NCBI RefSeq assembly: GCF_002906575.1
Contig: NZ_CP026309.1
Location: 3,658,001 to 3,722,000 of the forward strand
Source of the DNA: Salinigranum rubrum
GTDB lineage: Archaea > Halobacteriota > Halobacteria > Halobacteriales > Haloferacaceae
Length of the DNA: 64,000 nucleotides
Direction: 5' to 3'
Both the position numbers and the translations under genes were made by a program. Positions 36,881 through 42,160 of this stretch are shown one piece after another. Position 1 is the stretch's first letter, and each line of letters opens with the position of its first letter. Below the pieces are notes generated by a model. It saw only the letters and a program-made list of their open reading frames with translations, was not told where the DNA came from and ran no database searches.

Positions 36881-37357
36881 ATGTTCGAAAGCGGTCCGTA
36901 CGTCGCCGACAACGTCACGCCCGTCGACGAGACGCAGGTCCAGCCGAACGGTGTCGACCTCACGCTCGCGTCGGTGCTCGAACAGACGGAGCCCGGGCGG
37001 ATAGCGACCGACGGCAAACGCATCGGCGAGCGCCGGGCGGTCGAGTTCGAATCCCGCGACGGCCGCGAGTGGGCGTCGCTCGCGCCCGGGGGGTACGTCC
37101 TCCAGTACGCCGAGACTGTCCACATCCCCGAGGGACACGTCGGATTCATCTATCCCCGGTCGTCGCTCATGCGCAACTCCTGTATGCTCAACACCGCGGT
37201 GTGGGACGCCGGGTACGAGGGGAAAGGCGAGGGGCTTCTGCAGGTGCACCACCCCATCGAACTCGAACGCGGCGCGCGCATCGCGCAACTCGTACTGGCC
37301 GAGGCGACTCACGAGGGGACGTACGACGGGAGCTATCAGGGCGAGCGGACGGAGTAA
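36881..37357 (+). CDS. dUTPase / dCTP-deaminase-family protein
   Basis: A 158-residue trimeric-type nucleotide hydrolase. Motifs are YPRSSLMRNSCMLNTAVWD, DAGYEGKGEGLLQVH and the C-terminal LERGARIAQLVLAEA, common to dCTP deaminases and dUTPases. This short archaeal subtype is usually annotated deoxyuridine 5'-triphosphate nucleotidohydrolase, removing dUTP and giving dUMP for thymidylate synthesis. Discriminating dUTPase from deaminase needs alignment of the catalytic Glu, which I cannot do with certainty. Start ATG 36881. Upstream of tRNA-Lys, which is on the other strand. Confidence 0.88.
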   Translation: MFESGPYVADNVTPVDETQVQPNGVDLTLASVLEQTEPGRIATDGKRIGERRAVEFESRDGREWASLAPGGYVLQYAETVHIPEGHVGFIYPRSSLMRNSCMLNTAVWDAGYEGKGEGLLQVHHPIELERGARIAQLVLAEATHEGTYDGSYQGERTE

Positions 37358-37488: not shown

Positions 37489-37562
<74 letters not shown>

Positions 37563-37768: not shown

Positions 37769-38443
37769 TCAGTCGAAGTACGCCGTCAGCGCGTCGGCGA
37801 GCACGTCGTCCGGGGAGACGTTCTCCAGCGAGGCACGACGCCGGAGTTCGAGGTAGAGGTCGGGGGGAAGGCGAGTGGCGAGTTCGCCGAGGACGACGCC
37901 GTGTTCGGCGAGCGCCTCCTCGACGGGCGTCCCGTTGTTGATGGCGCTCGCGGCTCGACGCACTTCTCTGACGGTGAGGTCGCTGTCGAGGACGGCCCAC
38001 GCGAGCGCGAAGCGGGCATCGCCGGAGACGCGGGCGATGTGCTTGGCGGCCGTCGGGGCGATGTCGCCGCGGGCGACGTGACGCCGGACCGCCTGCGGGA
38101 GGTCGTGGACGCGGGCCCACTTCCGGATGAACGAGACGGAGACGTCGCCGCCGGCCCGCTCGGCGGCGCGCTTGTACGAGCCGACGCCGCGGACGAGCGC
38201 GGCACACGCTGCTGCACCGCGGAGCATGTAGACGTTGTCCTCGGCGCCGACGGTGTTCTCCGAGAAGGAACGGACGGTCTCGGCCGCGAGTTGGACGCTC
38301 TCCGGGTCGTCGGGGTCGAAGCCGACGGCTTCACGCGCGCGCTCACCTGTGACCGACGGGTCGGCGCGAACCACCGGTTCGCCGACCGGTTCCTCCCGGT
38401 CGGCCGGATGCGTCCACCGCCGAGGGCCGTCTCCGTCACTCAT
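37769..38443 (-). CDS. DUF7119-like protein with ParB-like helix-turn-helix
   Basis: A 224-residue soluble protein. The middle AACAALVRGVGSYKRAAERA and VSFIRKWARVHDLPQAVRRH read like the ParB/KorB-type helix-turn-helix, and RGDIAPTAAKHIARVSGDAR continues the ParB pattern (x-I-x-x-x-A-A-x-x-I-A-x-x). The C-terminal RLPPDLYLELRRRASLENVS resembles a ribbon-helix-helix. It matches a haloarchaeal family I recall as DUF7119. DNA binding is likely; a partition role is not implied because no ParA is adjacent. Start ATG 38443. Confidence 0.82.
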   Translation of the reverse strand: MSDGDGPRRWTHPADREEPVGEPVVRADPSVTGERAREAVGFDPDDPESVQLAAETVRSFSENTVGAEDNVYMLRGAAACAALVRGVGSYKRAAERAGGDVSVSFIRKWARVHDLPQAVRRHVARGDIAPTAAKHIARVSGDARFALAWAVLDSDLTVREVRRAASAINNGTPVEEALAEHGVVLGELATRLPPDLYLELRRRASLENVSPDDVLADALTAYFD

Positions 38444-38514: not shown

Positions 38515-38688
38515 TCAGTCGGAGCCGGCCTGTTCGCGACGCTCGGAGAGGTGCTCCCATATCTCGGTGCACCCCGCTCCGGGCTCGACATCGTCGAGGT
38601 GTGCCGTGTCGACGTCGTCGCCTTCGGTCGTGTCGGCGTCCACCTTCTCGTCGTCGCCCTCGGTCGCGACGGCGGGTTCCTCGCTCAT
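38515..38688 (-). CDS. 57-residue acidic micro-protein
   Basis: A small ORF: MSEEPAVATEGDDEKVDADT, then an Asp-rich stretch, then a conserved-looking end VEPGAGCTEIWEHLSERREQ with one Cys and a Trp. I recall haloarchaeal small proteins ending in the same GAGC(T/A)EIWEHLSE motif but no named family. The ATG overlaps the stop of the 29-codon ORF upstream as ATGA, implying coupled translation. A redox or metal role for the Cys is a guess. Confidence 0.72.
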   Translation of the reverse strand: MSEEPAVATEGDDEKVDADTTEGDDVDTAHLDDVEPGAGCTEIWEHLSERREQAGSD

Positions 38689-38774
38689 CGACCGTTCTCC
38701 CCGTCGTCGTACAGTTCCGGTGCGACGTCCGCTGGTGCGTGTTGTCGGTAGCGACTCCGCAGATAGTCGGTCAT
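38685..38774 (-). CDS. 29-residue micro-protein, leaderless
   Basis: MTDYLRSRYRQHAPADVAPE plus LYDDGENGR. A TATA-like CTTATTT is centred exactly 28 bases before the ATG, the spacing of a leaderless haloarchaeal transcript, and the TGA overlaps the start of the 57-codon ORF. That combination makes a real gene pair likely despite the length. No family recognised. Confidence 0.6.
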   Translation of the reverse strand: MTDYLRSRYRQHAPADVAPELYDDGENGR

Positions 38775-38798
38775 CGATTACGCTCAGGGACGGGAAGG

Positions 38799-38805
38799 AA
38801 ATAAG
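38799..38805 (-). promoter_or_regulatory. TATA-like box of the micro-ORF pair
   Basis: CTTATTT on the minus strand, 28 bases before ATG 38774, in an otherwise GC-rich region. Confidence 0.5.
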
Positions 38806-38989
38806 GGCGCCTCAGGCAGTAATCGATGCCAGCACTCCCGGCTAGCGGAGACTACTGCCTCTATCTTCGACGTACGCTTCTGCCGAAAAATACCGGCGTC
38901 CTGCGGTTTGCCCGAAACGGCTCGTCACCGGATTCGTCAGGGATTGCACCGGCCACGGCGTACTCGTATCTCCCGCGCTAACCGTGGGT

Positions 38990-39331
38990 ATGAGCGTCGC
39001 CCTTCGAATCCTCGACGACGGGGCGTGGGTCTCCGTCAACGACGAGCGCCGCGTGAGCGTGAGCGAACTCTGGCGCTTCCACGAGCCGGAATTCTGCTCC
39101 TGTACGCTTCCCGACCTCGTCGTCGAGAACTTCCAGCAGGTCGGCGTCGATGGCCGGACAGTCGAGGCGCGCGTCTACGGGCAGTGCATCGCGTGTGGTG
39201 AGACAGGTATAACGCCGTGGCTTCCGGTGGGCCGGATCGTCGACGGCGCGTACCGGGATATCGACCGCGAGAGCGTCCTCCGACCCGCTCGTGCGCCGCG
39301 CGCACATGCCCGTCGCCCGAGTCAGCAATAA
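38990..39331 (+). CDS. small haloarchaeal protein with paired CxC/CxxC cysteines
   Basis: A 113-residue soluble protein. Two cysteine pairs, EFCSCTLPD and QCIACGETG, are spaced like a zinc site. The N-terminus (LRILDDGAWVSVNDERRVSV) is beta-rich. The last 17 residues are Arg/Ala/Pro-rich and look unlike the rest, so the true end may differ. No family recognised. It lies 80 bases before the nitrite/sulfite reductase gene on the same strand; a functional tie is unproven. Confidence 0.65.
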   Translation: MSVALRILDDGAWVSVNDERRVSVSELWRFHEPEFCSCTLPDLVVENFQQVGVDGRTVEARVYGQCIACGETGITPWLPVGRIVDGAYRDIDRESVLRPARAPRAHARRPSQQ

Positions 39332-39411: not shown

Positions 39412-41196
39412 ATGCCGACGGACGTCGAGAACTGGAAGTCGGAGGTTTACGGTAACGAGATACGGGAGCACCTCTTCCGCTTCGCGGAGGAGGGGTGGGA
39501 CGCGATTCCCGAGGACGAACACGACGCGTGGTTCGAGCGCTTCAAATGGTGGGGGCTGTACCACCAGCGCAACGGCCAGGAGTCGTACTTCATGATGCGC
39601 ATCGGGACGCCCAACGGCGTGCTGAAGCCGGGGCAGACCGAGGTCGTCGCCGAGATCGCCGAGGAGTACGCCGAGGGCCCCGAGGAGAACCCCATCTTCG
39701 GCAACGGCTGGGTCGACTGGACCACCCGCCAATCCATCCAGCTTCACTGGATCAAGCTCGAAGACATCCCCGATATCTTCGAGAAACTCGAATCCGTGGG
39801 ACTGTCCACGCAGCAAGCCTGTGGTGACTCCTGGCGGAACATCGTCGGCTGTCCCGTCGCCGGGAAGGACAGGCACGAACACGTCGACGCGCTGCCCGTC
39901 GCCGAAGGGCTCCACGAGACGTACAAGGGCCACGACGAGCACTCGAACCTCCCCCGGAAGTGGAAGGTCGCCGTCACCGGCTGCCGCGAGGGCTGTGGCC
40001 AGGGCGACATCAACGACCTCGCCTTCGAGCCCGCGACGAAGGAGGTCGACGGCGAGGAAGTGAAGGGCTTCAACGTCAACGTCGGGGGCGGTCTCGCCCG
40101 GAACGAACCGCGGCTCGCGCGGGGGCTCGACGTGTTCGTCACGCCCGAAGAGGCCGCCGAGGTCGGCGGCGCCATCTCGGCGCTGTTCCGCGACTACGGC
40201 AACCGCGAGGACCGCTACAGCGCACGGATGAAGTTCCTCGTCGACGAGATGGGGGTCGAAGAGATCCGCGAGACTCTCCAGTCCGAGTACGTCGACTTCG
40301 AGCTTCGCACGGCGGGTGCGGACCTCCGCGAGAGCTACTCGTACAACTCCGGTCGCGCGACGGGCGGCCACTCCGACCACGTCGGGGTCCACGAACAGCG
40401 TGATGGCAAGTACTACGTCGGGCTGAACGTCCTCGTCGGGCGGATGGCCACCGAGGACACCCGCGAACTCGCTCGCGTCGCCGACGAGTACGGCTCGGGC
40501 GAGGTCCGCGTCACCCAGCGGCAGAACGTCATCATCACCGACGTTCCCGAGGAGAGCCTCGACGCACTCCTCGAAGAGCCGCTTCTGGAGAACTACTCGC
40601 CGGAGCCCCACCCGTTCATGCGGGGCTCCGTCGCCTGCACGGGGACGGAGTTCTGCTCGCTCTCCATCGTCGAGACGAAGAACCGCCAGGTGCGCTACGC
40701 GCGCTGGCTGAAGGACAACGTCGAACTCCCCGAAGGCGTCGAGAACTTCCACATCCACCTCTCGGGCTGTACCGCATCCTGCGCCCAGCCGCAGATCGCC
40801 GACATCTCCCTGCGGGGGATGAAGACCCGGAAGGACGGCGAACCGGTGGAGGCGCTCGACATCGGTCTCGGCGGTGGTCTCGGCGAGAACCCACGCTTCA
40901 CCCAGTGGGTCACCCAGCGCGTTCCCGTCGACGAGGTCCCCGGAGCCATCCGGAACCTGCTCGCGAACTTCGAGGAGCATCGAGAGGGCGGCGAGACGTT
41001 CCGCGAGTTCGTCGAACGCCACGAGGACGACGAGGAGTTCCTCGACTCGCTCGTCGAACCCGAAGAGACCGACTACGACGACCCGATGATGCACAACACG
41101 AAGATGACCTGGTACCCGTACGCCGAGGACGACGACATGGGCGCCTCGCCCGCACCGACAGACCGCGACGGGGCCCCGCTCCCGGCCGACGACTGA
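39412..41196 (+). CDS. ferredoxin-dependent nitrite/sulfite reductase (siroheme, 4Fe-4S)
   Basis: A 594-residue two-repeat enzyme reducing nitrite to ammonia or sulfite to sulfide with six electrons. The siroheme/[4Fe-4S] cysteines are Cys409-x5-Cys415 (ACTGTEFCSLS) and Cys453-x3-Cys457 (SGCTASCAQPQ). Each repeat has a ferredoxin-like half domain, with TTRQSIQLHWIKLEDI and VRVTQRQNVIITDVPE as the matching siroheme-side segments. The acidic C-terminal tail is haloarchaeal. Without nasA/nasB-type neighbours, nitrite versus sulfite cannot be decided. A TATA-like CTTACG is 29 bases before ATG 39412. Confidence 0.92.
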   Translation: MPTDVENWKSEVYGNEIREHLFRFAEEGWDAIPEDEHDAWFERFKWWGLYHQRNGQESYFMMRIGTPNGVLKPGQTEVVAEIAEEYAEGPEENPIFGNGWVDWTTRQSIQLHWIKLEDIPDIFEKLESVGLSTQQACGDSWRNIVGCPVAGKDRHEHVDALPVAEGLHETYKGHDEHSNLPRKWKVAVTGCREGCGQGDINDLAFEPATKEVDGEEVKGFNVNVGGGLARNEPRLARGLDVFVTPEEAAEVGGAISALFRDYGNREDRYSARMKFLVDEMGVEEIRETLQSEYVDFELRTAGADLRESYSYNSGRATGGHSDHVGVHEQRDGKYYVGLNVLVGRMATEDTRELARVADEYGSGEVRVTQRQNVIITDVPEESLDALLEEPLLENYSPEPHPFMRGSVACTGTEFCSLSIVETKNRQVRYARWLKDNVELPEGVENFHIHLSGCTASCAQPQIADISLRGMKTRKDGEPVEALDIGLGGGLGENPRFTQWVTQRVPVDEVPGAIRNLLANFEEHREGGETFREFVERHEDDEEFLDSLVEPEETDYDDPMMHNTKMTWYPYAEDDDMGASPAPTDRDGAPLPADD

Positions 41197-41878: not shown

Positions 41879-42160
41879 ATGCCAGACCGGCTCCTGAAGA
41901 TCAACGCGTACACCACCTTCGACATGTTGGACGGCTCGGCGCAGGGGCACGACTTCGACGAGGAGGCGTTCGCCGTCCTCAACGTCACGGCTCCCAGAAG
42001 AGACCCCGACCACGTGACGCTCGAACTCGAACTGGACAACACCCAGCTAGAGACGCTTCCGGCACACGCCGACCGGGTGACGCTCTCGGCGGCGCAGGCA
42101 CGCGAACTCGCCGACGAACTCGAGGAGTACGCCGCCAGGGTCGAGGCAGCCGAGGAGTGA
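41879..42160 (+). CDS. DUF6360 family protein
   Basis: A 93-residue haloarchaeal protein: MPDRLLKINAYTTFDMLDGS, then AVLNVTAPRRDPDHVTLELE, ending in an amphipathic helix (AQARELADELEEYAARVEAA). This is the pattern I recall for DUF6360, which often lies close to nitrite/sulfite reductase-type genes. No function is known. Its short length, conserved core and acidic helix suggest a small regulatory or adaptor protein, but that is speculation. Confidence 0.85.
   Translation: MPDRLLKINAYTTFDMLDGSAQGHDFDEEAFAVLNVTAPRRDPDHVTLELELDNTQLETLPAHADRVTLSAAQARELADELEEYAARVEAAEE

Follow-up and report, generated by a model that had tools for sequence, protein, structure and literature searches.

Two small overlapping open reading frames, ORF1 and ORF2, in the 64-kb window analysed here (the whole stretch of DNA that was examined, from the 4.97 Mb, six-contig genome of Salinigranum rubrum) are, on the sequence comparisons presented below, almost certainly real coupled genes with reading frames conserved as protein. 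The pair is very probably linked in function to siroheme reductases. The explanation that best accounts for the data as a whole, which is given about an even chance of being correct, is that ORF1 and ORF2 constitute a leaderless bicistronic operon encoding accessory micro-proteins of assimilatory siroheme reductases. The tie to these enzymes, which was absent from the preliminary description of this DNA, is well supported by the phyletic pattern of ORF2 and by the recurrence of the ORF1 motif. The relevant features are collected in Table 1.

Table 1. Features of the ORF1–ORF2 locus and its surroundings; positions are those of the window
Feature	Position	Strand	Evidence
tRNA-Lys (TTT), downstream of DUF7119	37489..37562	-	
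DUF7119 protein with ParB-type HTH, next gene downstream of ORF2	37769..38443	-	PF23433, E=1.5e-74
ORF2, 57 aa, motif HLDDVEPGAGCTEIWEHLSERR, invariant Cys40, C-terminal helix 40-55	38515..38688	-	184/194 Halobacteria genomes; AlphaFold
ATGA, ORF1 stop overlapping ORF2 start	38685..38688	-	4-nt overlap, 31/36 ORF1 loci
ORF1, 29 aa, motif RQHAPADVAPELY	38685..38774	-	Conserved motif and frame; ORF2 overlap; ORF2 fusion in Haloparvum
TATA-like box CTTATTT, first base at -31	38799..38805	-	Box at -30/-31 in homologous upstream regions
Conserved element GGCATCGATTAC, consensus GGTAKCGMTTRC, 13 nt before box	38819..38830	-	Homologous-locus comparison
GTCAGGGATTGC, looser version of upstream element, at -54 of divergent gene	38936..38947	+	Orthologous promoters
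113-aa protein with CxC...CxxC, single copy, divergent from ORF1, adjoins NirA1	38990..39331	+	Invariant Cys36, 38, 66, 69
NirA1, NirA-family siroheme reductase, K-x-K signature PRKWK	39412..41196	+	Sequence signature
DUF6360 protein, part of conserved neighbourhood	41879..42160	+	PF19887, E=1.4e-39

The preliminary description placed a CTTATTT box 28 bases before a 29-codon ORF that overlaps a 57-codon ORF through an ATGA-type junction. Both parts of that arrangement were found as described, the 28 bases being measured from the centre of the box to the ORF1 ATG. When both strands of the window were searched with scripted criteria, ORF1–ORF2 was the sole box-preceded coupled pair in this size range. 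Haloarchaeal genes often start with ATGA (MT.., MS..), and the argument for coupling therefore rests on the conserved frame of ORF1 and not on the four letters. The two frames overlap by 4 nt in 31 of the 36 ORF1-bearing loci and by 8 nt in three; in two loci (L034 and L096, which probably represent a single Haloparvum genome counted twice) they are fused in frame, with both motifs in a single 67-aa protein.

Variability at codon positions 1, 2 and 3 was 0.06, 0.06 and 0.36 for ORF1 and 0.06, 0.01 and 0.33 for ORF2, values that are partly circular because core motif residues served to select the sequences. Third-position-biased variation was also seen at residues outside the search pattern. 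In pairwise comparisons dN was below dS for both ORFs in every congeneric case. The dN/dS values of congeners against the window ranged from 0.07/0.35 to 0.26/1.9 for ORF2 and from 0.055/0.13 to 0.28/0.5 for ORF1, the latter ratios being rough because ORF1 is very short. It had been proposed that the arrangement is unlikely to be due to chance, and that lack of conservation in relatives would overturn it; conservation of frame and synteny is clear, and the box spacing, the codon-position variation and the excess of dS over dN bear the proposal out. Chance ORFs are ruled out by the conservation, the box spacing and the codon-position variation. A non-coding RNA was likewise rejected, the tRNA-Lys alone having scored between positions 37000 and 40000.

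In 72 of 93 non-redundant upstream regions taken from homologous loci, the first base of a TATA-like box falls at -30/-31; this spacing holds for loci that open with ORF1 and for those in which ORF1 was not found and ORF2 comes first. A leaderless transcript calls for a box at a fixed distance of about 25-31 nt ahead of the start codon, and the ORF1–ORF2 transcript is thus apparently leaderless, as had been suggested. The GGTAKCGMTTRC element keeps the same spacing to the box in most homologous loci, and the stretch around GGCATCGATTAC is nearly invariant among four congeners. On the divergent side, an element similar to GTCAGGGATTGC is located at -54/-55 in many orthologous promoters and is weaker than the ORF1-side element. 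A scan of the source genome with one pattern for the -55 element gave two box-spaced matches, against one in the reversed control, and a large regulon was not found in that scan.

Relatives of ORF2 were detected at 152 places in genome contigs, of which 80 were kept. A single-sequence search found ORF2 in 42 of 46 good-quality relatives, and a profile search of 194 good Halobacteria genomes found it in 184. In a phylum-wide sample the matches were confined to haloarchaea, with none in the sampled non-haloarchaeal genomes of the phylum. By these searches, ORF2 is a near-core haloarchaeal protein. Its invariant residues are M1, H30, G37, G39, C40, E42, W44 and E45, which include the pattern G-x-G-C-x-E-x-W-E; the GAGCTEIWEHLSER motif, previously considered conserved-looking, is indeed conserved among ORF2 relatives. 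In the AlphaFold model the C-terminal helix has a pLDDT of about 94-95, and the N-terminal half is of low confidence.

Comparison of the ORF2 profile with PDB sequences yielded nothing meaningful, and neither Pfam nor NCBIfam has a model that matched ORF1, ORF2 or the 113-aa protein meaningfully. On two Natrinema plasmids, relatives of ORF2 are annotated in RefSeq as 'hypothetical protein', so that the sequence is on record but no family is known for it; the statement that gene callers usually miss both ORFs consequently does not always apply to ORF2. No paper on the ORF1–ORF2 genes was found in the open-access literature, the only literature covered, which is weak evidence of absence. The proposal that the pair is an undescribed small-protein system therefore stands in so far as no described family was found, but the pair is not free-standing: a NirA-family siroheme reductase is encoded with it in a conserved divergent locus. 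Among ORF2 paralogues that lack an adjoining DUF7119 gene (L071, L081, L103, L106), GTTACTCA..TGAGTAAC-like inverted repeats were observed near the start codon, and a TrmB-like regulator adjoins an ORF2 paralogue in L067, L081 and L103.

The recurrent gene order is DUF6360, NirA-family reductase and 113-aa CxC/CxxC protein, divergent from ORF1, ORF2 and DUF7119; divergent synteny of the pair with NirA1 was observed in 49 of the examined loci. The 113-aa protein occurs once per genome, beside NirA1, in 38 relatives and is absent from all others examined. It has no Pfam family, one of 40 members giving a weak NifU match, and its fairly confident AlphaFold model (pLDDT 85) is all-beta, with no significant match among solved structures. 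DUF6360-like genes also lie directly downstream of NasD in L125, L129, L134, L135 and L139, an arrangement like that of NirA1 and DUF6360 in the window, and DUF6360 may be another siroheme-reductase-linked family. No literature on DUF7119 or DUF6360 was found among open-access papers.

The PRKWK signature was present in all 56 NirA1 loci, as against PRKFN in 5/5 sequences of the nitrite reductase NasD and PRKFK in the paralogue at L115. In plant enzymes, an N/K difference at the position of residue 226 of tobacco NiR separates nitrite from sulfite reductases. PDB alignments showed N at the signature position in nitrite reductases, with K in one deposited variant (3vlx); a search for papers on the N/K position returned none. 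NirA1 has Lys rather than Asn at this position, the residue of sulfite reductases, and is therefore probably a ferredoxin-dependent sulfite reductase. It matches the NCBIfam ferredoxin--nitrite reductase model, but below the model cut-off, and the name 'ferredoxin-nitrite reductase' may be wrong for this protein.

The phyletic pattern was determined for the 194 Halobacteria genomes, with the NirA family scored as present at E<=1e-40. The family is absent from 26 genomes and ORF2 from 10, and all 10 of the latter are among the 26 (p = 3.2e-10 in a test that ignores phylogeny). Three of the ten ORF2-less genomes (G131, G199 and G205) were scored as NirA-less by their absence from the match list, and six NirA-less genomes are unlisted by name. 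The co-absent genomes span eight genera and five families. None of the 168 NirA-bearing genomes lacks ORF2, so that, phylogeny being ignored, the presence of ORF2 follows that of the reductase. ORF2 is retained in 16 of the 26 NirA-less genomes, a finding that counts against an accessory role for the pair, as do the Natrialbaceae-type genomes, in which ORF2 and DUF7119 (often with DUF6360) are found without an adjoining reductase and mostly without ORF1.

The main rival explanation is that ORF2, with ORF1, is a co- or anti-regulator of the DUF7119 protein, which would control the operon and the divergent reductase genes via the -55 element; the link to the reductase would then be regulatory and not physical. 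ORF2 and DUF7119 adjoin even where the reductase is elsewhere, the ParB-type HTH of DUF7119 and the related upstream elements facing both divergent genes are in keeping with such control, and DUF7119, present in 188 of the 194 genomes, is missing only from NirA-less ones (6/26). Eight genomes, however, have DUF7119 without ORF2 and four have ORF2 without DUF7119, several Halorubrum-type loci contain ORF1–ORF2 without an adjoining DUF7119 gene, and the ORF1 motif recurs, as described below, at NasD and aFsr loci and within an enzyme subunit. This explanation is accordingly considered unlikely, although it retains appreciable weight.

Two small genes that overlap and share a conserved promoter might raise the suspicion of a toxin-antitoxin or defence pair, the more so as two ORF2 relatives are plasmid-borne. 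The near-core distribution and fixed chromosomal synteny, the fusion of ORF1 and ORF2 into one protein and the co-absence with a metabolic enzyme make this interpretation extremely improbable, and neither ORF had a match in PADLOC, Pfam or PHROGs.

The conserved core of ORF1, H-A-S/P-A-D-V/A-A-P-E-L-Y/F (HASADVAPEL[Y/F]), lies upstream of ORF2 in more than 30 loci. In 60 relatives, 38 of 40 ORF1-profile matches at E<=1e-4 have a NirA-family gene, or what is left of one, no more than about 1.4 kb away, as tallied by hand from the listed coordinates. Eleven matches are situated away from ORF2 loci: nine have an intact or remnant NasD or aFsr-alpha gene as their neighbour, one adjoins a nasA-like molybdopterin oxidoreductase and one is an orphan. 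In L130 and L135-L140, too, NasD is followed by an ORF1-like ORF; none was found after NasD in L125-L129 and L131-L134, i.e. in nine of the 16 further NasD loci checked. Four of 13 aFsr-beta (FrhB-like) proteins (L115, L146, L151 and L152) start with the ORF1 motif, and their genes follow a third reductase paralogue. The nine NasD loci without an ORF1-like neighbour and the nine aFsr-beta proteins without the motif count against the accessory-pair reading, as does the orphan motif protein, which is found in one genus.

In L120 and L124, NasD is decayed or truncated and an ORF1-like ORF is still present behind it. The orphan (L122, G054:C17:358110) is a 60-aa PADVAPEL protein ending in DDSCGCGSS, resembling a free-standing aFsr-beta leader; it adjoins SRP/FtsY-like genes with no reductase near, and similar matches were found in other genomes of the same genus.

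These data also bear on whether ORF1 might be a regulatory leader peptide, the translation of which would control ORF2 through coupling while the product itself is inert. ORF1 is short, comes first in the operon and overlaps ORF2 in almost every locus, and a degenerate overlapping ORF1 has been kept in some Natrialbaceae-type loci (L059, L064). Nevertheless, its motif is conserved as protein, with variation at third positions, and it occurs in stand-alone ORFs downstream of NasD with no ORF2 behind, within aFsr-beta and in the ORF2 fusion, so that an inert product appears improbable.

Taken together, the confinement of ORF2 loss to NirA-less genomes and the occurrence of the ORF1 motif beside related enzymes indicate that the pair is probably accessory to those enzymes; the divergent synteny with NirA1, the ORF1–ORF2 fusion and the contrast between PRKWK and PRKFN were also counted in favour of this reading. 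Small proteins that act as accessories of enzymes are known as a class. At this locus the pair would serve the divergent NirA-family enzyme, probably a ferredoxin-dependent sulfite reductase. ORF1 would offer a short docking motif, (H/N)A(S/P)AD(V/A)APEL, that binds the reductase, and ORF2, co-produced through stop-start translational coupling and kept beside the enzyme, would assist or gate it by means of its C-terminal helix and single invariant cysteine. Cofactor assembly, donor recruitment and redox control are candidate roles for ORF2. What we infer from the comparisons is that the pair is transcribed and translated and that it docks physically, together with what the cysteine does, whether the effect is positive or negative, and which substrate the reductase uses; a mechanism of docking and accessory-subunit function is accordingly rated at slightly under an even chance.

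More tentatively, (H/N)A(S/P)AD(V/A)APEL could be a docking code that is specific to haloarchaea and addresses siroheme reductases: free micro-proteins (ORF1 and the NasD-linked ORFs) would carry it, it would act as an N-terminal tether of the F420H2-dependent donor subunit, and the ORF1–ORF2 fusion would be a further use of it. In assimilatory sulfite reduction, ORF2 could be a subunit or an assembly factor, cysteine-bearing, near-universal and so far undescribed. The siroheme nitrite/sulfite reductases offer a concrete, testable partner for a near-core haloarchaeal protein that had no assigned function. If the short motif does recruit partners, it would explain how haloarchaea match electron donors (ferredoxin, F420H2) to six-electron enzymes, and would point to a hidden micro-protein layer in assimilatory sulfur and nitrogen metabolism.

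Among known systems, pairs of an FrhB-like protein and a reductase have been proposed to be the F420H2-dependent assimilatory sulfite reductases of haloarchaea (PMC3448663). Some members of the aFsr-beta (F420H2-dehydrogenase) subunit start with (N)APAD(V/A)APEL and, like ORF1, are encoded in connection with a siroheme reductase, in their case right after it. Aside from this motif the two differ: aFsr-beta is a 557-aa FrhB-type Fe-S protein, whereas ORF1 consists of little more than the motif and lacks an FrhB/Fer4 domain. The FrhB_FdhB N and C domains with 4Fe-4S motifs are present in the L115 protein and absent from ORF1 and ORF2, neither of which is thus a member of aFsr-beta. The ORF1-like ORFs after haloarchaeal nasD, for which no family name was found, share the motif and size class of ORF1 and overlap or directly follow a siroheme reductase gene, but there the reductase is on the same strand and no ORF2 is behind, whereas ORF1 of the window is divergent from the reductase and overlaps ORF2. 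The zinc-finger micro-proteins of Haloferax volcanii (HVO_0758, PMC10716476) are, like the pair, haloarchaeal, shorter than 70 aa and in possession of conserved cysteine. They have two C(P)XCG motifs (PMC10716476), in contrast to the one conserved cysteine of ORF2 and none in ORF1, so that neither ORF falls within that group. MtrR of Methanosarcina mazei, likewise a small protein of an archaeon, has been reported to modulate the Mtr complex, a large enzyme (PMC13370731); its likeness to ORF1–ORF2 is one of concept only.
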